This document shows, piece after piece, positions 16,113 to 57,320 of a DNA stretch of 64,000 nt. A program made the position numbers and the translations under genes. How positions within the stretch are numbered: the first letter of the stretch is position 1; each line of letters opens with the position of its first letter. Source of the DNA: Ariolimax columbianus (taxonomy: Eukaryota > Mollusca > Gastropoda > Stylommatophora > Arionidae); assembly GCA_036924085.1 (NCBI GenBank), contig JAVGWX010000005.1, forward strand, positions 101,429,172 through 101,493,171, given 5' to 3'. Under the pieces are notes generated by a model. The model did not search any database, was not told the DNA's origin, and was given only the letters and a program-made list of their open reading frames with translations.

Positions 16113-18880
16113 ATACTTAACTTAACTTAACGCCATTATACTGGTTTAGAAAACCCTGCAGAGTCTGAATGCAACCAGTTTCATTTACTTCACCTTGCTC
16201 TAAAAGCTATGCGCATCCAGTTTATTCTTAAATGCATTTACTGTCCCTGCCTCCACTACCTCCTCTGGCAATGTATTCCAAGCATTCACCACTCTCTGAC
16301 TAAAAATATTTCCTAATAACTAATCTGGACCTCTCTTTAGTCAACTTGTAGCTCTGCCCTCTTGTTATTGTGGGTGGCTGTATTTTAAAAAAATTGTTAT
16401 AGTCTAATTTATCCATTCCTCTGATCATCTTATAAACCTGTATTAAGTCACCGCGAATTCTTCTCTCTTCTAGACACTGTAGGTCGGTTTTTCTGAGTCT
16501 TTCCTCATAACTGTGATTCTGGAATCCCACTATAAGCTTTGTCGCTTTATTTTGTATTCTTTCCAGCATGATTATATCCCCTCTATGATAATGACTCCAC
16601 ACCTGTACACAGTACTACAATCTAGGTGTAACTAATGCTTCATACAGTGTGACTATCACTTCTTTGCTCCTATGTTTAATATTTCTTTTTATCATACCTA
16701 AAATTGCATTTGCCTTTTTCATTGCTACCTGAACTTGCTCACTCACCTTACCTGTATGATTTATTATAACCCCTAGGTCCCTTTCCTTATCTATCTTTCT
16801 AATATTGTTCATTCCCATTTGCCAGCTTACAGACCATTCTCGAATTTTATCTAAATCCGACCTCAATATATCCACTTCTGCTTTAGATGAGACACTACTG
16901 CATAGTTTTGTGTCATCAGCAAATTTCGCAATCATGGATCCCATATCAATGTCCAAATCATTTATATATATCAAGAACAAAATTGGTCCCAAAACCGAGC
17001 CTTGTGGCACTTTACTTTTCACTTCACACCACTCAGAGTACTCCTTATTTATGCCCACCCTCTGCCTTTTTCCCGTTAACCAATTTTCAATCCATTTGGC
17101 AACTTCCCCACCTATTCCATGTTATTTTAACTTTCGAAATAATCTTTGATGAGGTACTCTTTGAAAGACCTTTGCAAAATCTAGATAAATAACGTCCACT
17201 GGCTCCCCTTATCTATCATTTTGGTAACCTTCTCCATGAGTTCTAATAGATTTTTTAAGCATGATCTCCCTCTAGTAAACCCATGCTGACTATTTCTAAT
17301 TAGATTAAATTTGTCTAAATGCATTACAATATTTTCTTTGATTATTGACTGAATCAATTTACAGACTATGCTAGTTAAAACTCACCGGTCTATAATTCGC
17401 TGGATATGATTTTTTATCCCTTTTGAATAAGGGGATCACTCCTGCATCTTTCCAATCCAGTGGAGCAATCCCTTTTGCAAGTGATTGAGAACATAATATA
17501 GCCAATGGTGTTGCTAGTTGGTCTCTAATTTCAAATACCAATTTTGGATGAATACCATCTTGACCTGGACATTTATCCACTTTCAACCCCTCCAATTTAA
17601 AAAAAATACAATTTCCTCTGTAATACAGATTGATTTTAATCTCGCTGTATCCATGTCTCGTTGAAAAATATCTATAGGCTGTGGGATCTTGGAGCAGACC
17701 TCTTTTGTGTAGACTGTGTCTATTTTTGCTGTTTTATTCGCTTTCTGAGATCTGTTTGTCCAAATATTTTAAATATGTTTCTTTTGATTTACCTGCCTCT
17801 ATATATTTTTCCCATGCTTTATTTTTACCTCTTCTACATTTCACTACAAATTTAGTTATCCACTTTCTACGCTTGGGGTTTACCTGCCTACATGGATCAC
17901 ATTCCTCTTTTAGCGTTTCTAGAACTGTTTTAAAACTCTCCCACTCCTGTTCAACATCTGTTTCGCCAACAATATCTTTCCAGATTATGTGGTTCACTGC
18001 ATCTTTAATCTTCCTAACATCTGCCTTAGAGTAGTCGTATGTTCGCGTGTTTATGTTTATTTCTTTCCCTGCAATAAGATCCCAACGGATGATTTGATGG
18101 TCACTTGAGCCAAACAGTTCCCCAACGGTAACGTTTTCAATCATATTTTCCTCTGTAGTAAAAACTAGGTCGAGTGTGTTTTTGCCTCTGGTAGCTGCTT
18201 CTACATGTTGAATTAAAAAATTGTCAGTTATGCACTTAACAAAAGGTTTTGACTCTACGAGTGCTTCTGCCATATCCCATTTTATTTCTGGAAAGTTGAA
18301 ATCCCCAATTAATAATAATCTCCTTTCACTTGCCTTTGCTATGCTACTAATCAGCTCCTCATCTTCCTCTTTTTGACTTGATGGACTTCTATAGCATACT
18401 CCAATCATTGTTCTTTCACCCCCACTTTCTATTTCTCCCCATACACTTTCATTTTTTTTACCACATGAAAAATCATATTTGATGGTTATATTAACAGAAT
18501 TTATACAGTATAATAAAACGCCACCTCCCTTAGTCTTGTCTCCAACTACCCTATCTTTCCTTAACATTGTATATCCTTCTATTTCAAGTTCACTATCTGC
18601 AATGTCCTCATATGTTCATGATTCTGTTAACCCTATTATATCTGGTTTTTCTTCTTTTACATACAGTTCCAATTCTTACTCTTATTTACTATGCTTCTCA
18701 CATTTGCATAAAAACATTTTAGTTTGTAATTTTGTTGTTTTTCCACTTTTTACTTTTGTTTTATCATTTTAGTGTTTGCTTTTCCACTACTTATTTCACA
18801 CTTCCCTGAACCCAACTCTCCCCTTTGACTACATTCACTGTAGGACCCTATTGTAGGCCTATCTTTAGTCTCATACTTCA
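16113..18880 (-). mobile_element. CR1-like LINE, nearly complete ORF2, minus strand
   Basis: About 2.77 kb inserted inside a 31-bp minisatellite. The minus-strand 3' end carries a (TTAAG)n tail (ttaac repeats at about 16117-16131), as CR1-type elements carry short 3' microsatellites. The 5' limit near 18880 is a transition back to minisatellite. No TSD was resolved, which is common for CR1. Related copies lie at 59565-60607 and 62705-63072. Confidence 0.88.
16170..18790 (-). pseudogene. CR1-like ORF2: APE endonuclease plus reverse transcriptase
   Basis: Read from high to low coordinates. The endonuclease begins near 18700 (CFYANVRSIVNK), with GLTES followed by a stop where Trp is expected. 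A 277-residue open segment (18567-17734) holds MIGVCYRSPSS, LLLIGDFNFPEIKWD and GSSDHQIIRWDL, the conserved APE catalytic blocks. The RT begins at 17595 (DKCPGQDGIHPKLV, DAGVIPLFK, ANYRPVS). It continues through a broken stretch with DVIYLDFAKVFQRVPH, then VPQGSVLGPILFLIYINDL and IAKFADDTKLCS at about 17005-16900, the catalytic ADD. It ends with the thumb region (LGMIKRNIKHRSKEVIVTLY; ERIQNKATKLIVGFQNHSY). Stops and frameshifts at about 17060-17370, 16610 and 16300 inactivate it. The enzyme would nick DNA and prime reverse transcription on it. Confidence 0.88.
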
Positions 18881-37680: not shown

Positions 37681-38085
37681 TGGGAAACTGAATATAACCA
37701 TCGTTTCTACACTTCTGTCGTTATCTAAGTCGTTACTTATGTACTTAAAATAAAATTGTATCGACCTGTCCTCCACTTAACCCGAAATAGAATAGTCCGA
37801 GACGTACGGGAACTGTTTGGGGTGAATTAGGACACACGTACCGACGTCTTTACTGAATTGTGTGTTTGACTTAGTTATTAGCTTAATTTTTTTTTTAAAC
37901 CAACATACAAGAATTGCATAATAAAATAACGTTCAAATACATTCATTATAGATATGAATTGTGACTTCATGACTTAAAGGTGCTGACGGGTGAAGAGAAA
38001 TGTCGAGAAGTGACGGACAACGGAAAGGCGTGTTTGACGTTCAGGGGAAAAGAGATTTGCGAGTTTACGGGAGGAAAGAGTTGGG
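37681..38085. other. Unannotated region
   Basis: No recognised feature. Confidence 0.4.
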
Positions 38086-38119
38086 ATTATTGGCAATTTG
38101 AGAGGGCTGAAAAGAGATG

Positions 38120-39535
38120 TACACGGGATGCATGTGTTGATGTTGGGATAGATGGATGAGGGATGGGTTGATGTTGGGAGATATGGATGAGGGATGGGTT
38201 GAGGTTGGGAGATATGGATGAGGGATGGGTTGAGGTTGGGAGATATGGATGATGGATGGGTTGAGGTTGGGAGATATGGATGATGGATGGGTTGAGGTTG
38301 GGAGAGATAGATGAGGGATGGGTTGAGGTTGGGAGAGATGGATGAGGGAAGGGTTGAGGTTGGGAGAGATAGATGAGGGATGGGATGAGGTTGGGAGAGA
38401 TGGACGAGGGATGGGTTGAGGTTGGGAGAGATAGATGAGGGATGGGTTGAGGTTGGGAGAGATAGATGAGGGATGGGTTGAGGTTGGGAGAGATGGATTG
38501 AGGCTGGGAGAGATGGATGAGGGATGGGTTGAGGTTGGGAGAGATGGATGAGGGATGGGTTGAGGTTGGGAGAGATGGATGAGGGATAAGTTGAGGTTGA
38601 GAGAGATGTTGAGGGATGGGTTGAGGTTGGGAGATATGGATGATGGATGGGTTGAGGTTGGGAGATATGGATGATGGATGGGTTGAGGTTGGGAGAGATA
38701 GATGAGGGATGGGTTGAGGTTGGGAGAGATGGATGAGGGAAGGGTTGAGGTTGGGAGAGATAGATGAGGGATGGGATGAGGTTGGGAGAGATGGACGAGG
38801 GATGGGTTGAGGTTGGGAGAGATAGATGAGGGATGGGTTGAGGTTGGGAGAGATGGATTGAGGCTGGGAGAGATGGATGAGGGATAGGTTTAGGTTGGGA
38901 GAGATGGATGAGGGATGGGTTGAGGTTGGGAGAGATGTTGAGGGATGGGTTGAGGTTTGGAGAGATGGATGAGGGATAGGTTTAGGTTGGGAGAGATGGA
39001 TGAGGGATGGGTTGAGGTTTGGAGAGATGGATGAGGGATGGGTTGAGGTTGGGAGAGATGGATGAGGGATGGGTTGAGGTTGGGAGAGATGGATGAGGGA
39101 TGGGTTGAGGTTGGGAGAGATGGATGAGGGATGGGTTGAGGTTGGGAGAGATGGATGAGGGATGGGTTGAGGTTGGGAGAGATGGATTAGGGATGGGTTG
39201 AGGTTGAGAGAGATGGATGAGGGATGGGTTGAGGTTGGGAGAGATGGATGAGGGATGGGTTGAGGTTGGGAGAGATGGATGAGGGATGGGTTGAGGTTGG
39301 GAGAGATGGATGAGGGATGGGTTGAGCTTGGGAGATATGGATGAGGGATGGGTTGAGGTTGGGAGAGATGGATGAGGGATGGGTTGAGGTTGGGAGAGAT
39401 GGATGAGGGATGGGTTGAGGTTGGGAGAGATGGATGAGGGATGGGTTGAGGTTGGGAGAGATGGATGAGGGATGGATGGGTTGAGGTTGGGAGAGATGGA
39501 TGAGGGATGGGTTGAGGTTGGGAGAGATGGATGAG
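38120..39535. repeat. 31-bp G-rich minisatellite, about 45 copies
   Basis: Units read ggatgagggatgggttgagg then ttgggagagat. Each contains three GGG runs, so the + strand has potential to form G-quadruplexes throughout. A larger block with shared variants (gggaagggttg, gacgaggg, ggattgaggctggg) occurs twice, near 38341-38515 and 38724-38880, a duplication of about 380 bases. Minus-strand Pro/Ser/His/Leu frames, up to 738 codons, reflect the absence of stops in all three phases. Confidence 0.95.
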
Positions 39536-39735
39536 AGATAGTGTTTTTGACGTTTGGAAAAGATGAACGCGATGAGTAAGAAAAGTTGGTAGTTCGGGAG
39601 AGCAGGTTGAGGAGGAAGAGAAGGGCTTGCTGAAGGGAAGACTAAATTGTTGGGAGAGAGGGCAAATGTTGTGTTGAATAGAAAGAAATAGAAAGTGAAG
39701 GGGAAGGTTTGAGAAAGATTGGAGGTGGAAATATT
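39536..39735. other. Spacer between two G-rich arrays
   Basis: About 200 non-repetitive but purine-rich bases. It keeps the minus-strand frame open and is not otherwise distinctive. Confidence 0.5.
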
Positions 39736-40520
39736 TAAAGAATTGAAAGGTGGGAAGGTTGAAAGAGATGGGAGGTGGGAAGGTTGAAAGAGATGGGAGG
39801 TGGAAAGGTTGAAAGAGATGAGAGGTGGGAAGGTTGAAAGAGATGGGAGGTGGGAAGGTTGAAAGAGATGGGAGGTGACAAGGTTGAAAGAGATGGGAGA
39901 TGACAAGGTTGAAAGAGATGGGAGGTGACAAGGTTGAAAGAGATGGGAGTTGGGAGTTGGGAAGGTTGAAAGAGATGGGAGGTGGAAAGGTTGAAAGAAA
40001 TGGGAGGTGACAAGGTTGAAAGAGATGGGAGGTGGGAAGGTTGAAAGAGATGGGAGGTGGGAAGGTTGAAAGAGATGGGAGGTGGGAAGGTTGAAAGAGA
40101 ATGGAGGTGACAAGGTTGAAAGAGATGGGAGTTGGGAGGTTGTAAGAGATGGGAGTTGGGAAGGTTGAAAGAGATGGGAGGTGACAAGGTTGAAAGAGAT
40201 GGGAGTTGGGAGGTTGAAAGAGATGGGAGGTGGAAAGGTTGAAAGAGATGGGAGGTGACAAGGTTGAAAGAGATGGGAGGTTGTAAGAGATGGGAGGTGA
40301 CAAGGTTGAATGAGATTTTATGTGGGCAGGTTGAAAGAGATAGGAAATGGAGAGGTTTAAAGAGAAGGGAGGTGGGCAGGTTGAAAGAGGTGGGAGGTGA
40401 GCAGAATGAAAGAGATGGGAGGGGGAAGATTGAAAGAAAGGAGAGGTGGGCAGGTTAAAAGAGATGGGAGGTTTGCAGATTGAATGACATGGCTTTTTTG
40501 ATATTTCAAAGAGATGGGAC
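39735..40520. repeat. 26-bp G-rich minisatellite, about 25-28 copies
   Basis: Units contain tgggaaggttgaaagagatg followed by ggaggt. Variants replace tggga with tgaca or tgtaa. The right end is diverged. Minus-strand Phe/Pro/Ser-rich frames are artefacts. Confidence 0.93.
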
Positions 40521-41475: not shown

Positions 41476-41574
41476 AAGAAGAAGGCAGTCTTATTGCTCC
41501 CTTCATACAAACATTTTTAGTCGTACTTTCCGACAAGATGTTAAGGTCATATTGGATATGTTCATTTCATCTTG

Positions 41575-42825
41575 GACACCACTCTGTACTAACTGTTCAT
41601 TTAAACTCTGACACCCCTCTGTACTGTTAATTTAAACTCTGACACCACTCTGTACTAACTGTTCATTTAAACTCTGATACCACTCTGTACTGTTAATTTA
41701 AACTCTGATACCACTCTGTACTAACTGTTCATTTAAACTCTGATACCACTCTGTACTGTTAATTTAAACTCTGACACCACTCTGCACGAACTGTTCATTT
41801 AAACTCTGATACCACTCTGTACTAACTGTTCATTTAAACTCTGATACCACTCTGTACTAACTGTTCATTTAAACTCTGATACCACTCTGTACTAACTGTT
41901 CATTTAAACTCTGATACCACTCTGTACTGTTAATTTAAACTCTGACACCACTCTGTACTAACTGTTCATTTAAACTCTGATACCACTCTGTACTAACTGT
42001 TCATTTAAACTCTGATACCACTCTGTACTGTTAATTTAAACTCTGACACCACTCTGTACTAACTGTTCATTTAAACTCTGATACCACTCTGTACTAACTG
42101 TTCATTTAAACTCTGATACCACTCTGTACTAACTGTTCAATTAAACTCTGATATCACTCTGTACTAACTGTTCATTTAAACTCTGATACCACTCTGTACT
42201 AACTGTTCATTTAAACTCTGATACCACTCTGTACTAACTGTTCATTTAAACTCTGATACCACTCTGTACTGTTAATTTAAACTCTGACACCACTCTGTAC
42301 TAACTGTTCATTTAAACTCTGATACCACTCTGTACTAACTGTTTATTTAAACTCTGATACCACTCTGTACTGTTAATTTAAACTCTGACACCACTCTGTA
42401 CTAACTGTTCATTTAAACTCTGATACCACTCTGTACTAACTGTTCATTTAAACTCTGATACCACTCTGTACTAACTGTTCATTTAAACTCTGATACCACT
42501 CTGTACTGTTAATTTAAACTCTGACACCACTCTGTACTAACTGTTCATTTAAACTCTGATACCACTCTGTACTAACTGTTCATTTAAACTCTGATACCAC
42601 TCTGTACTGTTAATTTAAACTCTGACACCACTCTGCACTAACTGTTCATTTAAACTCTGATACCACTCTGTACTAACTGTTCATTTAAACTCTGACACCA
42701 CTCTGCACTAACTGTTCATTTAAACTCTGATACCACTCTGTACTGTTAATTTAAACTCTGACACCACTCTGTACTAACTGTTCATTTAAACTCTAATACC
42801 ACTCTGTACTAACTGTCTTTACTTC
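41575..42825. repeat. 35/31-bp two-class minisatellite, about 37 copies
   Basis: A 35-base class (aactgttcatttaaactctg, then ataccactctgtact) is interspersed with a 31-base class (gttaatttaaactctgacac, then cactctgtact). The 4-base length change and the t/c difference (gatacc vs gacacc) travel together. Each short unit is followed by one to several long units. Confidence 0.95.
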
Positions 42826-43035: not shown

Positions 43036-43039
43036 TGCA

Positions 43040-43435
43040 TGTTCTACATGATCCAAACGTGGCATGGATCTTGCTCAGTACGTTTTACCTGACCCTGGCG
43101 TGTCGTGGAGTCTTGGTCAGTACGTGTTAACTGATTGTGACGTGACGTGGGGTCTTGCTCAGTATGTTCTACATGACCCAAACGTGACGTGGGCTATGGT
43201 CAGTATGTTCTACATGACCCAAACATGACTTGGTTCTTCGTCAGTATTTTCTGCACGACCAAAACGTGACGTGGGTCTTGGTCAGGATGTTATACATGAC
43301 CCAAACGTGGCGTGGGTCTTGCTCAGTATGTTTTACCAGACCATGAAGAGACATATGGTCTTGGTTTAGCCAGTACGTTTCGCAAGACACTGACCAGTGG
43401 TGGGGTCTTAATCAGTATGTTTCACCTGTCCCTGC
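43040..43435. repeat. Degenerate ~41-46-bp repeat upstream of the ELH-like exon
   Basis: About 8 diverged units with ctacatgacccaaacgtgac and gtgggtcttggtcagtatgt. The cores (cctgacc, gtcagtatgtt) recall the 37-bp dispersed family. It ends about 85 bases before the splice acceptor, so it probably lies in the 5' intron. Confidence 0.8.
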
Positions 43436-43507: not shown

Positions 43508-43521
43508 TTTGTTTATTACAG
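43508..43521 (+). promoter_or_regulatory. Predicted splice acceptor before the ELH-like coding exon
   Basis: The text ttttgtttattacag, with its AG at 43520-43521, forms a good pyrimidine-rich 3' splice site only 22 bases before the start codon. This implies at least one upstream 5' UTR exon joined here, with the whole coding sequence in the exon that follows. Confidence 0.65.
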
Positions 43522-43543: not shown

Positions 43544-44413
43544 ATGAGCTGCCAAAGATGCACCGTTCTCATCATACTAGCATGTTTCATTCTACCTGCT
43601 CGTGCTGCAAGCGTGGCACAAAACCGTCTAGGCAAAACTCCCTTTGTATCCTTCAGGAACTGTCTCAGAGAGGAACTATTGAAGCTGGACAGAAATTCCT
43701 TTTCCGCTTCAACAATACCTACAAGAAATGGATGTACCGACATTATGCACAGTTTATTTGTTAACATGCGAGCTCGTCCACAACATGGCTTGCTTCCAAA
43801 CCTGGCACTACCAACAAAGTTTACTCTGCAGAGTTCAATAGATGACCACTTTTCAGTTTCTGAAAGAGACATTGGCAGCACGGATGAGTCTCATCAGTAT
43901 ATCAGGAACAACCTTGTAGATGTTCAACGCAAGCTTCCTTCGAAAATATTTCTAAAAAGTTTGCGAACTCGTGGATCGACAAATCCTATTTTACGATCTA
44001 CAGTAGAGAATTATCTCATTAATCCCAAGTATAGAGCTAAGTCTTCCCCATCAAACCTCAACAAACGTTTGGCAAATGGTCGTCGTAAATTGACAGAATC
44101 AAAGTCTTGGTTTAAAGATTGGCACAATGATTACCACTCTTCCCTACTGGCGAGTGATACAAGAGGCATAGAGGGGGTACCAACGTACCATAGACTTATG
44201 GAAGTTCCTCAAACTCAGGATTTCCATGACGGAAAAACAAAACAGGGATCAGAGTCCCCGGCTGCTTTCACAGAGGTTGCTAAGAGACACCATCAGAGCT
44301 TGTCAATCAACAACGCGCTAATGACCTTGACCGACATGGTGCTAGAACATGAAAGAAAGAAGCTATTGAAAAATCGGAACAATTTAAGATATCATTTGTA
44401 TGTTCAAGGATAG
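43544..44413 (+). CDS. Egg-laying hormone (ELH/CDCH)-family prohormone
   Basis: A 289-residue secretory precursor. Residues 1-21 form a signal peptide (hydrophobic TVLIILACFIL, then PARA). The start is the first Met and directly precedes it. Likely convertase sites are RK 129-130, KR 174-175, RRK 180-182 and KR 247-248. Cys 40 and Cys 64 are the only cysteines after the signal. After KR 247-248 come HHQS and a 36-residue core (253-288) beginning LSINNALMTLTDMVLE. It aligns without gaps with gastropod ELH as I recall it, sharing SIN near the start, L7, TDM at 11-13, L15, LR at 29-30 and L33. Gly 289 precedes the stop directly, so amidation needs no further cleavage; known ELH precursors usually have GKR and a trailing acidic peptide. 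No RLRF-type bag cell peptide is seen. The known family hormone is released by neurosecretory cells and triggers egg laying. It belongs with the CRF/DH44-like peptides, an alternative label. The intact frame, unlike all its neighbours, supports a live gene. Confidence 0.87.
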   Translation: MSCQRCTVLIILACFILPARAASVAQNRLGKTPFVSFRNCLREELLKLDRNSFSASTIPTRNGCTDIMHSLFVNMRARPQHGLLPNLALPTKFTLQSSIDDHFSVSERDIGSTDESHQYIRNNLVDVQRKLPSKIFLKSLRTRGSTNPILRSTVENYLINPKYRAKSSPSNLNKRLANGRRKLTESKSWFKDWHNDYHSSLLASDTRGIEGVPTYHRLMEVPQTQDFHDGKTKQGSESPAAFTEVAKRHHQSLSINNALMTLTDMVLEHERKKLLKNRNNLRYHLYVQG

Positions 44414-44543: not shown

Positions 44544-44706
44544 AATAAAAAATTATGGAACATTACTAAACGTATAGAGGCATGACACATAACCCAAACT
44601 TGTTTGTTGTCGTATTTATGGATCGACACGTTTGTGCCTCTGAGAGAGGTGTATCAATTTTAGAAATTCGTCTTGAAGTCAGATTCACTGAACCCTAATG
44701 AATAAA
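44544..44706 (+). terminator. Candidate polyadenylation signals for the ELH-like gene
   Basis: AATAAA occurs at 44544-44549 and again at 44701-44706, respectively 131 and 288 bases after the stop codon. Either could define the 3' end. Which is used cannot be told from sequence alone. Confidence 0.5.
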
Positions 44707-45740: not shown

Positions 45741-45744
45741 CCAC

Positions 45745-46850
45745 ATCATCTTCCTACTAACCTTGTGCTACCAGATCATCTTCCTACCAACTCTGTGCTA
45801 CTACATCATCTATGTCAACCCTGTGATACCAGATCATCTTCCTACCAACCCTGTGCTACCACATCATCTTCCTACCAACCCTGTACTACCACATCATCTT
45901 CCTACCAACCCTGTGCTACCACATCATCTATGCCAACCCTGTGCTACCACATCATCTTCCTACCAACTCTGTACTACCACATCATCTATACCAACCCTGT
46001 GATACCAGATCATCTTCCTACCAACCCTGTGCTACCACATCATCTTCCTACCAACCCTGTACTACCACATCATCTTCCTATCAACCCTGTGCTACCACAT
46101 CATCTATGCCAACCCTGTGCTACCACATCATCTTCCTACCAACTCTGTACTACCACATCATCTATACCAACCCTGTGATACCAGATCATCTTCCTACCAA
46201 CCCTGTGCTACCACATCATCTTCCTACCAACCCTGTGCTACCACATCATCTATGCCAACCCTGTAATACCACATCATCTTCCTACCAACCCTGTACTACC
46301 ACATCATCTTCGCCAACCCTGTGCTACCACATCATCTTCCTACCAACCCTGTGCTACCACATCATTTTCCTACCAACCCTGTGATACCACATCATCTTCC
46401 TACCAACCCTGTGCTATCACATCATCTTCATACCAACCCTGTGATACCACATCATCTTCCTACCAACCCTGTGCTATCACATCATCTTCCTACCAACCCT
46501 GTGATACCACATCATCTTCCTACCAACACTGTGCTACCACATCATCTTCCCACCAACCCTGTGCTACCACATCATCTTCATACCAACCCTGTGCTATCAC
46601 ATCATCTTCCTACCAACCCTGTGATACCACATCATCTTCCTACCAACACTGTGCTACCACATCATCTTCCCACCAACCCTGTGCTACCACATCATCTTCC
46701 CACCAACCCTGTGCTACCACATCATCTTCCTACCAACCCTGTGCTACCACATCATCTTCCTACCAACCCTGTGCTACCACAGCATCATTTATGCCAACCC
46801 TGTGCTACTACAGCATCTTCATACCAACCATGTGCCACCAGAGCCAAAAT
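45745..46850. repeat. 30-bp minisatellite, about 37 copies
   Basis: Units contain accaaccctgtgctaccaca then tcatcttcct. Variants (atgcca, gataccaga, tatcac) come in larger repeated blocks; for example a roughly 176-base block starting near 45830 recurs near 46006. Thr/Pro/His-rich frames of 111-192 codons are phase artefacts. Confidence 0.95.
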
Positions 46851-47930: not shown

Positions 47931-47934
47931 ATAT

Positions 47935-49290
47935 CGTATGTGTCGGGTAGAAAGGTGCAGATGTCGCATGTGTCGGGAAGAAAGGCGCAGATAGTGTATG
48001 TGTTGGGCAGAAAGGCGCAGATATCATATATGTCAAGCAGAAAGGCGCAGCTATTGTATGTGTTGGGCAGAAAGGCGCAGATATCATATATGTCAAGCAG
48101 AAAGGCGCAGCTATTGTATGTGTTGGGCAGAAAGGCGCAGATATCGTATGTGTTGGGCAGAAAGGCGCAGATATCGTATGTGTTGGGCAGAAAGGCGCAG
48201 ATATCGTATGTGTCAAGCAGAAAAGCGCAGATATCGTATGTGTCGGGCAGAAAGGCGCAGATATCGTATGTATTTGGCAGAAAGGCGCAGATATCGTATG
48301 TATTGGGCAGAAAGGCGCAGATATCGTATGTGTCGGGCAGAAAGGCGCAGATATCGTATGTGTTGGGCAGAAAGGCGCAGATATCGTATGTGTCGGGTAG
48401 AAAGGCGCAGATATCGTATGTGTCGGGTAGAAAGACGCAGATATCGTATGTGTCGGGTAGAAAGGCGCAGATATCGCATGTGTCGGGTAGAAAGACGCAG
48501 ATATCGCATGTGTCGGGCAGAAAGGCGCAGATATCGTATGTGTCTGGTAGAAAGGCGCAGATATAGTATGTGTCGGGTAGAAAGGCGCAGATATCGTATG
48601 TGTCGGGTAGAAAGGCGCAGATATCGCATGTGTCGGGTAGAAAGGCGCAGATATCGCATGTGTCGGGTAGAAAGGCACAGATATCGTATGTGTCGGGTAG
48701 AAAGGCGCAGGTATCGTATGTGTCAAGTAGAAAGGCGCAGATATCGTATGTGTCGGGTAGAAAGGCGCAGGTATCGTATGTGTCAAGTAGAAAGGCGCAG
48801 ATATCGTATGTGTCGGGTAAAAGGAGTAGATATCGTATGTGTCGGGTAGAAAGGCGCAGATATCGTATGTGTCGGGTAGAAAGGCGCAGATATCGTATCT
48901 GTCGGGTAGAAAGGCGCAGATATCGCATGTGTCGGGCAGAAAGACGCAGATATCGTATCTGTCAGGTAGAAAGGCACAGATATCGTATGTGTCGGGTAGA
49001 AAGGCGCAGGTATCGTATGTGTCAAGCAGAAAGGCGCAGATATCGTATGTGTCGGGTAGAAAGGCGCAGGTATCGTATGTGTCAAGTAGAAAGGCGCAGA
49101 TATCGTATGTGTCGGGTAAAAGGCGTAGATATCGTATGTGTCGGGTAGAAAGGCGCAGATATCGTATGTGTCGGGTAGAAAGGCGCAGATATCGTATCTG
49201 TCGGGTAGAAAGGCGCAGATATCGCATGTGTCGGGCAGAAAGACGCAGATATCGTATGTGTCAGGTAAAAAGGCGCAGATATCGCATATG
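47935..49290. repeat. 30-bp minisatellite, about 45 copies
   Basis: Units read atatcgtatgtgtcgggtag then aaaggcgcag. Single 1-base deletions (for example near 48820 and 49120) shift phase. The region 48540-48850 is duplicated near 48840-49150, each copy ending in a taaaag-type shortened unit. Frames stay open on both strands (up to 432 codons). They are repeat artefacts. Confidence 0.95.
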
Positions 49291-50335
49291 TAATATATTC
49301 GTCAATGTTATTGGAATGTACTGGTTGTGACAACCAATTTATCTTTATGTAACGGACCTATCATTTCTGACTGTATGAGAAACATGAAAATATTTAATAC
49401 CTGACATTATAACTCAACGTAGAAGACTCTAAGACTTGATTCGATTTAACGCAACGAGCAATTCATTTATTACAAATCTTTAGCTTACAACATGGTTAAA
49501 ACTAAGAAACTAATTATAACTAACTCATGAGATTTTAGAATGCGCTTGAATGGAATCGCTGGGACTAAACCCAGTCCGTAGTCTAACCTATTATACATGA
49601 CAACCTATACAAATCTTGTTCTATCCTGATTAATTAACTATCTACGTTGTATTCACGTGTGCCTTCTGGCAGTTGGCGATAAATATATCTTTTGAGATCG
49701 TCGGTCCTGCACTGGGCAATAATTGCTTGTTGTTAACCTTGTGGGATTGCTCCCTGAGGATTCAGGTCACAACTCTCGCTCTGTCTGAGCTGATTTCAAC
49801 CTTGCTGATCTGAATCGTGAGTATGATCAATTTGTTCTGGACCTCATCAGTCCATCAAGAACTAATGTGTGTCATATTCACCTACTGAGTTTATCACTTC
49901 AGTTTGTTCTAAACCTCAGTTCAGTCACTCGAAGTTAACAGATTTCACGCATCGTATCGCTTATTACAAGGAGTCCACGATTCACACCAATGGGCAGTAG
50001 TTCAATCGCCTCTGATGTATCGTGAGATAACCTTCATGTCAAGCCCTGTATTTTCTGTCTTTCGTTTCCTACTTTTAGTTTCACGTGGGAACCTATGTCC
50101 CCTCCTGCTGACCAGTCAACGAATCACTGCTGTGCCTACAACCCGTGCCATTCTGACAAGTTCCACCCACTAAACCAATTTTCCCTAGCTGACTTTTCCC
50201 AGCCAATCTGCCAATGTCAGTTAATACCGGATCACAACGGCTGTCCTATACCCCACCCATCTCAGAGAACAATTCTCCAGCCCCAATCTATTCTGCTCTA
50301 TATATATCTATTACACATTCCCCTACTTCTCTTGT
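49291..50335. other. Unannotated region
   Basis: Non-repetitive, AT-rich on the left and pyrimidine-rich on the right. A stretch near 49420-49500 (gtagaagactctaagacttg, caattcatttatta) loosely resembles 52268-52325. No coding resemblance. Confidence 0.4.
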
Positions 50336-55624: not shown

Positions 55625-56090
55625 CTCGTTTACTGGCGACTGCCTTAATTAGTTCAGCTCTCAGATCTTGAAGTTTACTGGCAGCTAACCTATTTAATTC
55701 AGACTTCAGATGTGGAAGTTTACTGGCAGCTACCTTAATTAATTCAGTCCACAGATGTGGGAGATTACTGGTAGCTACCCTAATTGATTCAGTCCACAGA
55801 TGTGGAAGTTTACTGGCAGCTACCTTAATTAATTCAGTCCACAGATGTGGAAGTTTCCTGGCAGCTACCTTAATTAATTCAGTCCACAGATGTGGAAGTT
55901 TACTGGCAGCTACCTTAATTAATTCTGTCCACAGATGTGGAAGTTTACTGGCAGCTACTCTAATTAATTCACTCTTCAGATGTGGGAGATTACTGGTAGC
56001 TACCCTAATTGATTCATTTATCATATCTGAGTTTACTTATAGCTACCCTAATCAATTCAGTCCTTAGATGTGGGAGTTTACCGAGCTTGG
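55625..56090. repeat. 45-bp minisatellite, about 10 copies
   Basis: Units contain gcagctaccttaattaattc, agtccacagatgtggaagtt and tactg. The 15-residue periodicity in the 137-codon minus frame follows from the unit length. It ends directly at the LINE fragment that follows. Confidence 0.94.
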
Positions 56091-57320
56091 GGGCTTGTAG
56101 TGCATATAATCAGTCCGTGAATATGACTCTAACTGATGCCTGTTTACCAGGTTGAATGCCTTGGTGAGGTCAATGAAGACAAGAATTAGTGGTCTATGAT
56201 GTTCTCTGCATTTATCTTGCAATTGTCTCAGTGAAAAGACCATATCAACGGTGGAACTTTCTGTGCGAAAACCACACTGAGACTCCGGGTACACCCTGTC
56301 GGCCAGCTTTCGCAACCTGCTCAGGATGATGCGAGCATACACTTTCCCTACGGTGTTGAGAAGCGATATTCCCCTGTAATTTTTGCAGTCTCCTCCGTCT
56401 CCCTTGTTCTTGTAAAGGGTGATTATGTTGGCGTCTCTCATGTCCTGTAATACCGCCCCCTCATCTCAACACTGGCAGATATGTTCGTACACGTATTGAA
56501 GAAGTACGCCCCCCCCCCCGCCCCCGCATTTGATAATTTCAGCTGGAATCCCACCTCTACGGGTTGCCTTTCCCACTGGCATTTCCTCAATAGCTTTTCC
56601 CAAATCTTGTATGCTAGGTTATCGTTCCTGCATTACCTGTAGAATCTCGATTTCATTGAGAGCAGAGTCCGCCACTTCGTTGTTACAGGTGTACAAGACT
56701 GAACAATGTTCGGCCCATCTCTTCATTTGCATATCCCTGTCCAGATTAATCTCACGTGTCGCAAATTTCAGAGTCGCTGTATACTTTGTTGTTGGTCCAA
56801 ATGCTTTCTTTATGTCCTCGTACATTGCCCTGATTTTACAAGTGTCCGCAGCCGACTGTATGGACTTACAGAGTTGACGCCAATAGTTATTTGCACATTT
56901 CTTTGCCAGTATTTGTACCGTACTCTTTGCGGATTTCTCCAAGTTCGTGCTGCTTATGGAAATCTTAAACTCCAGGTGAGTAAATTGGCGCTTTTTAATG
57001 GCTGGTGCAAGGATGGCAGACCAGTCATTTCTGACTGTTGTTTTCTTTCCAAAGACTGACAAGACTGTGGTGTGTATTGACCCTCTGACGTGTTCCCATC
57101 TTTCTGTAGCACTTCCAGTAGTGTGCTGTTTTGTTATTTATTCAGAGAGGGATTTTGTGAATTCTTCCACCTTTTCAGGAATATCAGTTCCTGCTGTGTC
57201 TATGCAGCATTTACCCACATGTTTTGCCGGTGGATCTTCTTTGGCTGGAGTCTCATTTTGCAGCAGACTAGTGAGTGGTCAGTATCACAGTCAGCACTAT
57301 AAAACATGCGGGTTTGCAAA
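56064..57320 (-). pseudogene. LINE ORF2: endonuclease end, linker and RT start
   Basis: Read from 57320 down. FYSADCDTDHSLVCCKMRLQ near 57300-57240 is the final endonuclease block with catalytic D and H present. A linker of about 147 open residues (57062-56619) contains MYEDIKKAFGPTTKYTATLK and MQMKRWAEHCSVLYTC. Then PSIQDLGKAIEEMPVGKA, GGIPAEIIKC near 56530, and a 125-codon RT segment: DMRDANIITLYKNKGDGGDC, KNYRGISLLNTVGKVYARII, YPESQCGFRTESSTVDMVFS and VFIDLTKAFNLVNR with the first palm Asp. The element stops at about 56070 at the minisatellite, so the ADD box and thumb are absent. At least three frameshifts or stops, and a C/G tract near 56510, break it. Confidence 0.85.

Follow-up and report, generated by a model that had tools for sequence, protein, structure and literature searches.

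A divergent ELH-like prohormone gene of Ariolimax columbianus, probably a copy kept from the stylommatophoran genome duplication

ELH/CDCH is a classic example of an entire behaviour driven by the peptides of a single gene. The Aplysia ELH and Lymnaea CDCH polyproteins are secreted precursors that release one ELH-type hormone, and the same single precursors also give rise to bag-cell or CDCP peptides and to others from the C-terminal part (PMC9396074, PMC8172996). In Theba pisana, ELH1 injection induced egg laying, and two further ELH forms were found in the dart sac and mucous gland (PMC5051934).

The locus analyzed here lies in a 64,000-nucleotide stretch of the Ariolimax columbianus genome (hereinafter referred to as the window; C5:101429172-101493171, in a genome of 2.29 Gb and 401 contigs). 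As in Aplysia and Lymnaea, its product would be a secreted precursor from which one ELH-type hormone is released. A close likeness was seen to Theba ELH1 (PMC5051934): the core NAL..LTDMV.EHE was common to both, a C-terminal amide is expected in both, and Theba ELH1 likewise has no counterpart to the alpha and beta peptides known from Aplysia. The two differed in precursor length (289 residues in the window, 212 in Theba) and in the peptide end (RYHLYVQ-amide and KQRLLEL-amide, respectively), and the stop codon followed directly after the glycine in the window gene, whereas the Theba precursor continues with a further acidic C-terminal peptide. Repeats resembling bag-cell/CDCP peptides were encoded in this genome by a second gene on contig C5 (L017) and partly by a gene on contig C4 (L003), not by the window gene. 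Taken jointly, the results make it probable that the window gene is a duplication copy of an ELH-like secreted prohormone gene, yielding a 40-residue amidated peptide that would serve as a reproductive hormone.

Open frame and precursor organization

The earlier note on this DNA had described an intact 289-codon frame with a signal peptide and dibasic sites, and this description held. The frame was intact from ATG to TAG (Table 1), had a 4-mer complexity of 1.0, and was longer than the longest ATG frame in each of 100 sequences of 64 kb generated with a first-order Markov model (237 codons or fewer). Five longer ATG frames were present in the window, each of them a low-complexity tandem array (4-mer complexity 0.14–0.48). 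The N-terminus showed a hydrophobic peak at residues 6–17 (mean KD 3.17), and dibasic pairs started at residues 129, 174, 180, 181, 247, 271, and 272. The C-terminus read KR-HHQSLSINNALMTLTDMVLEHERKKLLKNRNNLRYHLYVQ-G-stop, so that a signal-like start, a dibasic site before the hormone, and a glycine after it were all present by sequence. A motif scan of the precursor found no RLRF-type (bag-cell/CDCP) motif and nothing beyond the glycine. The genome contained one full-length copy of the gene (C5:101472715-101473581).

Table 1. Features of the window gene, its surroundings, and the related frame on contig C5. Positions are those of the window unless a contig or locus is named.
Feature	Position	Strand	Basis or remark
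LINE-like fragments (RNase H, reverse transcriptase, endonuclease)	1145-1942, 16615-17058, 17734-18567, 56064-56441	-	Pfam
Putative splice acceptor AG, 22 nt 5' of ATG; presumed 5'-UTR intron upstream	43520..43521	+	Read by eye
Complete ELH-like prohormone coding sequence, 289 aa + stop	43544..44413	+	Translation, frame statistics, genome match
Predicted signal peptide, about residues 1-22	43544..43609	+	Hydrophobic stretch 6-17; cleavage point read by eye
KR cleavage site preceding hormone, residues 247-248	44282..44287	+	K247 and R248 invariant across five aligned precursors
Predicted mature hormone, residues 249-288 (40 aa); 36-residue ELH-homologous core 253-288	44288..44407	+	Homology, alignments, structure model
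Gly289, predicted amidation donor; stop codon directly after, no C-terminal acidic peptide	44408..44410	+	Gly kept in P0002-P0005 and L002
AATAAA, candidate polyadenylation signal	44544..44549	+	Sequence; another at 44701
142-residue ELH-family precursor frame (L017)	L017:1276-1704 = C5:103855853-103856281		2.4 Mb from window gene

Relationship of the hormone block to ELH peptides

The hormone block (residues 253–288) was aligned without gaps to published sequences of Theba ELH1 (PMC5051934) and Charonia ELH (PMC8270824), and to Aplysia ELH and Lymnaea CDCH-I. Identities were 17/36 to Theba and 11/36 to each of the other three; none of 100,000 shuffles reached the score for Theba, Charonia, or Aplysia, and five did so for Lymnaea. 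The roughly 11 ungapped identities with gastropod ELH that had been reported earlier were thus recovered with Aplysia ELH. Among 23,973 distinct six-frame 36-mers of the window, the block ranked first against each of the four references. Hidden Markov model comparison (hhalign) of the paralogue block with five ELH peptides gave a probability of 97.7% (E 2.2e-12), and the earlier claim of kinship with ELH is upheld by these results.

Gapped local alignment gave z-scores of 18.2 against the canonical ELH of the same genome, 16.5 against Theba ELH1, 7.7 against Haliotis (PMC6778792), 7.2 against Charonia, 6.1 against Aplysia, 5.2 against Lymnaea, and 4.0 against Biomphalaria ELH2 (PMC5455113). 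The ELH and DH44 families are homologous to each other (PMC6425005), and the block could on that account be read as a diuretic or stress hormone of DH44/CRF type instead of an ELH. This reading is very improbable, as the block was closer to the ELH peptides (4.0–18.2) than to the two sequences compared from the other family, a fly DH44 (2.7) and a human CRH (0.5), and the gastropod sequences of PMC6425005 fall into an ELH clade of their own.

A Pfam profile search, which the earlier note had named as a check, gave a divided answer. The full-length window protein matched no family, and the 42-residue tail given alone matched ELH as the sole family, at 15.1 bits (E 0.016) and below the PF02323 cut-off of 20. 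The match was in register, with tail residues 5–39 on profile positions 198–232 and L253 on position 199, which we take to be the start of Aplysia ELH. Published Charonia ELH (with KR added) scored 13.1 bits, also below the cut-off, and Biomphalaria ELH2 given alone had no ELH match in Pfam. PF02323 thus under-scores or misses accepted ELH peptides when they are given alone; since the accepted Charonia peptide falls below it, the cut-off was not taken as the family border, and annotation built on this profile may overlook such genes. On these alignments, the window block is assigned to the ELH family and the gene is filed as an ELH-like paralogue. In a PDB sequence search the sole match was a multicystatin (whole-sequence E 0.021), taken as chance because no individual stretch passed.

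ELH-family genes of the genome and their proposed pairing

Each of three protein queries of the genome recovered an identical set of ELH loci, made up of the window gene on C5, L002 (C4:113.86M), and L003 (C4:130.67M). L003 encoded 231 residues and exceeded the Pfam ELH cut-off (25.8 bits). It had 26/37 block residues in common with Theba, carried GKR behind the hormone and a C-terminal peptide, acidic by count, and showed the motifs RLRLV and LRFHSL. With the window gene it had in common 20/37 block residues, a signal-like start, dibasic sites, a single frame, and a putative acceptor near the ATG; the GKR, the acidic C-terminal peptide, the two motifs, and the passing Pfam score set it apart. 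By these features, L003 on C4, and not the window gene, is the canonical ELH gene of Ariolimax columbianus. L002 encoded 305 residues from its own ATG, ended at Gly, and is classed as a sister type of the window gene, likewise a non-canonical ELH.

A genome scan with the Pfam ELH model listed two places, L003 (23.6 bits) and C5:103856078-103856281 (26.5 bits), and neither L002 nor the window gene. The match on C5 ran into a TAA and belonged to L017 (Table 1), in which a signal-like start was followed by KRRLRES-KRRLRGS-KR, RLRFV, PRLRYHNL, and then RRR-stop; we take these repeats to resemble bag-cell/CDCP peptides. The L017 protein scored 20.4 bits against the cut-off of 20, on profile positions 80–154, N-terminal to the ELH block, and its N-terminal part matched L003 (31/113, E 2e-8). 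No ELH block was seen downstream when three frames were inspected by eye to L017:2201. Three further weak matches, one per protein query, were dismissed as chance: L004 (E 3.65, part-overlap with the block, five internal stops), L012 (E 0.396, part-overlap with the block, three internal stops), and L016 (E 5.83), which was free of stops but did not overlap the block.

In all four ELH-family genes of this genome (window, L002, L003, L017), a single frame held the coding sequence, and a putative acceptor, read by eye, preceded the ATG by 22, 29, 23, and 27 nt, respectively. In a crude pyrimidine count over the 300 nt before the ATG, this acceptor ranked second in the window gene and first in L002 and L003. 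The coding sequence of Aplysia ELH presumably also lies in one exon. The earlier claim that the whole coding sequence occupies a single exon agreed with this anatomy. A coding sequence in one exon, together with LINE-like fragments and many tandem arrays in the window, might also suggest a retrocopy or a chance open frame within repeat DNA; we regard this as extremely improbable, because the same anatomy in L002, L003, and L017 argues that no intron was lost by retroposition, the frame was longer than the longest in all 100 simulations, and relatives exist in other datasets. A 41-nt tandem repeat of about seven copies (43039-43336) was located inside the presumed 5'-UTR intron; its end and the putative acceptor were about 180 nt apart.

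For Stylommatophora, an ancestral genome duplication has been reported, together with a pair of Hox clusters located on different chromosomes (PMC12328838). In the present genome, the strong ones among the homeobox matches (at least 131; 150 of 246 candidates scored) included two dispersed groups, C2 130.6–136.2M and C14 0.96–1.3M plus 16.7–17.9M. These groups are candidate Hox clusters, and they resemble the two reported for Stylommatophora. The doubled homeobox groups and the likeness of L003 to Theba ELH1 fit the assignment of the animal to the Stylommatophora. Ten ion-channel frames were compared, taken from at least 124 Ion_trans matches (150 of 325 candidates scored). Frames at C5:100.24M (161.3 bits) and C4:116.10M (160.9 bits) were mutual best matches at 89%, all others being below 42%; the former was 1.2 Mb away from the window gene, and the latter 2.2 Mb away from L002. 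Silent difference of this pair was 0.760, within the range of three other such pairs (0.559, 0.567, and 0.770). The ohnologue comparison of L002 and the window gene thus comprised one independent anchor pair and a second ELH pair, L003/L017. On C4 and on C5 alike, the ELH-like gene shared its strand with the neighbouring ELH/BCP gene; spacing was unequal (16.8 Mb for L002–L003, 2.4 Mb for the window gene–L017).

The middle of C4 (about 55–58M) was tied to C17 by one compared channel pair and by two homeobox pairs of equal score only; being tied to both C5 and C17, C4 would be composite. Over the genome, ion-channel frames paired C4/C5, C4/C17, C8/C10, and C9/C22, and equal homeobox scores hinted at C1/C3.

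The simplest scheme, for which support is thin, would make L002/window and L003/L017 both duplication pairs. The window gene is most likely the second copy of L002, retained after the genome duplication of Stylommatophora on the part of C5 that corresponds to the C4 segment bearing L002 and L003. More tentatively, and as a scenario we hold to be possible without favouring it, the egg-laying polyprotein may have been split after the duplication over genes of two sister chromosomes, with L003 as canonical ELH, L017 carrying only bag-cell peptides, L002 deeply conserved with a new C-terminus, and the fast-evolving window partner taking up a new role, e.g., as a mating signal of the accessory gland with a distinct receptor preference. 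With ELH-type peptides on separate genes and both ELH-like copies kept, the division of a behavioural polyprotein becomes directly testable, and the extra ELH-like copy gives a clue to the way in which a single gene for a reproductive hormone became divided among several.

Conservation, constraint, and proposed function

A search of 5.8 billion proteins yielded four relatives (P0002, P0003, P0004, and P0005), and among them no sure orthologue of the window copy in another species. The hormone block was at the C-terminus in all four; P0004 ended in GK and the other three at Gly, as did L002. Like the window precursor, these four and L002 had the unusual C-terminus and no RLRF-type motif. Among the five, 34–37 residues of the 37-residue block were identical, and the pro-regions were 20–56% identical. 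A near-invariant block and divergent pro-regions are typical of prohormones, whose function depends mostly on the peptide. The window precursor had 28–30 of 37 block residues in common with L002 and P0002–P0005, and its pro-region was 27–28% identical to those of P0002–P0005. In contrast to the near-invariant block of the other five, it had six private residues at positions where they were unanimous, and the others had none each; two of the six were the state of canonical ELH. A second KR, starting 15–16 residues ahead of the hormone KR, was present in L002 and P0002–P0005 and absent from the window precursor. In those five it may release another small peptide. The linker after the second KR was 13–14 residues long and contained W in four of the five. 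After the hormone KR, the window precursor read HHQ, lacking the basic run, and L002, P0003, P0004, and P0005 read RRQ. In a tree of seven precursors no branch was starred and long branches met; for this reason the tree was not used as proof. A scan of viral contigs with the window protein gave no match.

Between the window gene and L002, the 37-codon block differed at 19.0 of 21.8 silent sites (0.87, a figure resting on these 21.8 sites) and at 11.0 of 89.2 replacement sites (0.123). Outside the block the two were barely alignable (57/229 aligned residues identical), and blastn found a single 144-bp stretch over the block (74%). At 0.5 changes per site, a neutral simulation left none of 2,000 frames open and preserved no more than 22 of the 37 block residues; 2/2000 and 69/2000 frames stayed open at 0.25 and 0.1 changes per site, respectively. 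The absence of open frames at 0.5 argues that the window frame was constrained for most of its separate history, and purifying selection acting for long on the hormone block is supported by these comparisons.

The window gene is nevertheless the fastest-changing of the six copies compared, through relaxed or changed selection, and it may be losing constraint, as its six private residues and missing second KR would indicate. A decaying duplicate, whose role was lost recently and which drifts towards a pseudogene with its frame still open, would account for these traits, for the loss of the basic run before the hormone, and for the repeat-dense surroundings. We consider it unlikely: silent sites relative to L002 are near saturation with a replacement difference of only 0.123, and open frames were rare or absent in the neutral simulation, which together leave room for recent decay only. 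The earlier reading as a diverged ELH gene was borne out in its ELH kinship and divergence, with purifying selection on the block; it is refined in that the canonical ELH gene is L003 and the window gene a diverged paralogue, whose neural expression and part in egg laying would be predictions.

For the preferred reading, an ELH-like prohormone, the following course is proposed. The prohormone would be secreted and its signal peptide removed, cleavage at KR247-248 would release the 40-residue, most likely helical peptide, and this would be C-terminally amidated from Gly289. The amidated peptide would then act as a reproductive hormone, probably on a receptor of CRF/DH44 type, which we take to be class B. 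In the AlphaFold model, a helix at residues 239–288 was the sole confident part (30 residues with pLDDT ≥70; whole model 40.8, the rest unreliable). Amphipathicity of the helix was not significant, its moment being reached by 886 of 2,000 shuffles. Aplysia ELH is reported to be inactive after loss of the first residue or extension of the C-terminus by one residue (PMC4200219); given this sensitivity of the ends, the altered C-terminus found throughout the paralogue group suggests that its receptor preference differs.

A full-text literature search with pieces of the peptide, in a coverage excluding figures, supplements, and most subscription papers, returned the Theba ELH paper and otherwise eight papers that contained only 'sinnal' and whose titles were unrelated to molluscs. 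Among the best-ranked literature on ELH with land snails, gene families, and paralogues, no title concerned this hormone type.

Pfam was also applied to ten other frames of the window; four gave matches to families of reverse transcriptase, RNase H, or endonuclease, and the remaining six gave none. No other host gene was found among these frames, in agreement with the earlier remark that this is the only convincing one in the 64 kb. Rfam gave no match in the window at gathering scores. Arrays with repeat units of 35 nt (41559-42816) and 30 nt (45741-46840) flanked the gene on either side. Minisatellites at 38132-39539 and 47931-49291 created long spurious frames, and the former was strongly strand-asymmetric, with a GC skew of 0.938 for 38001-40000.
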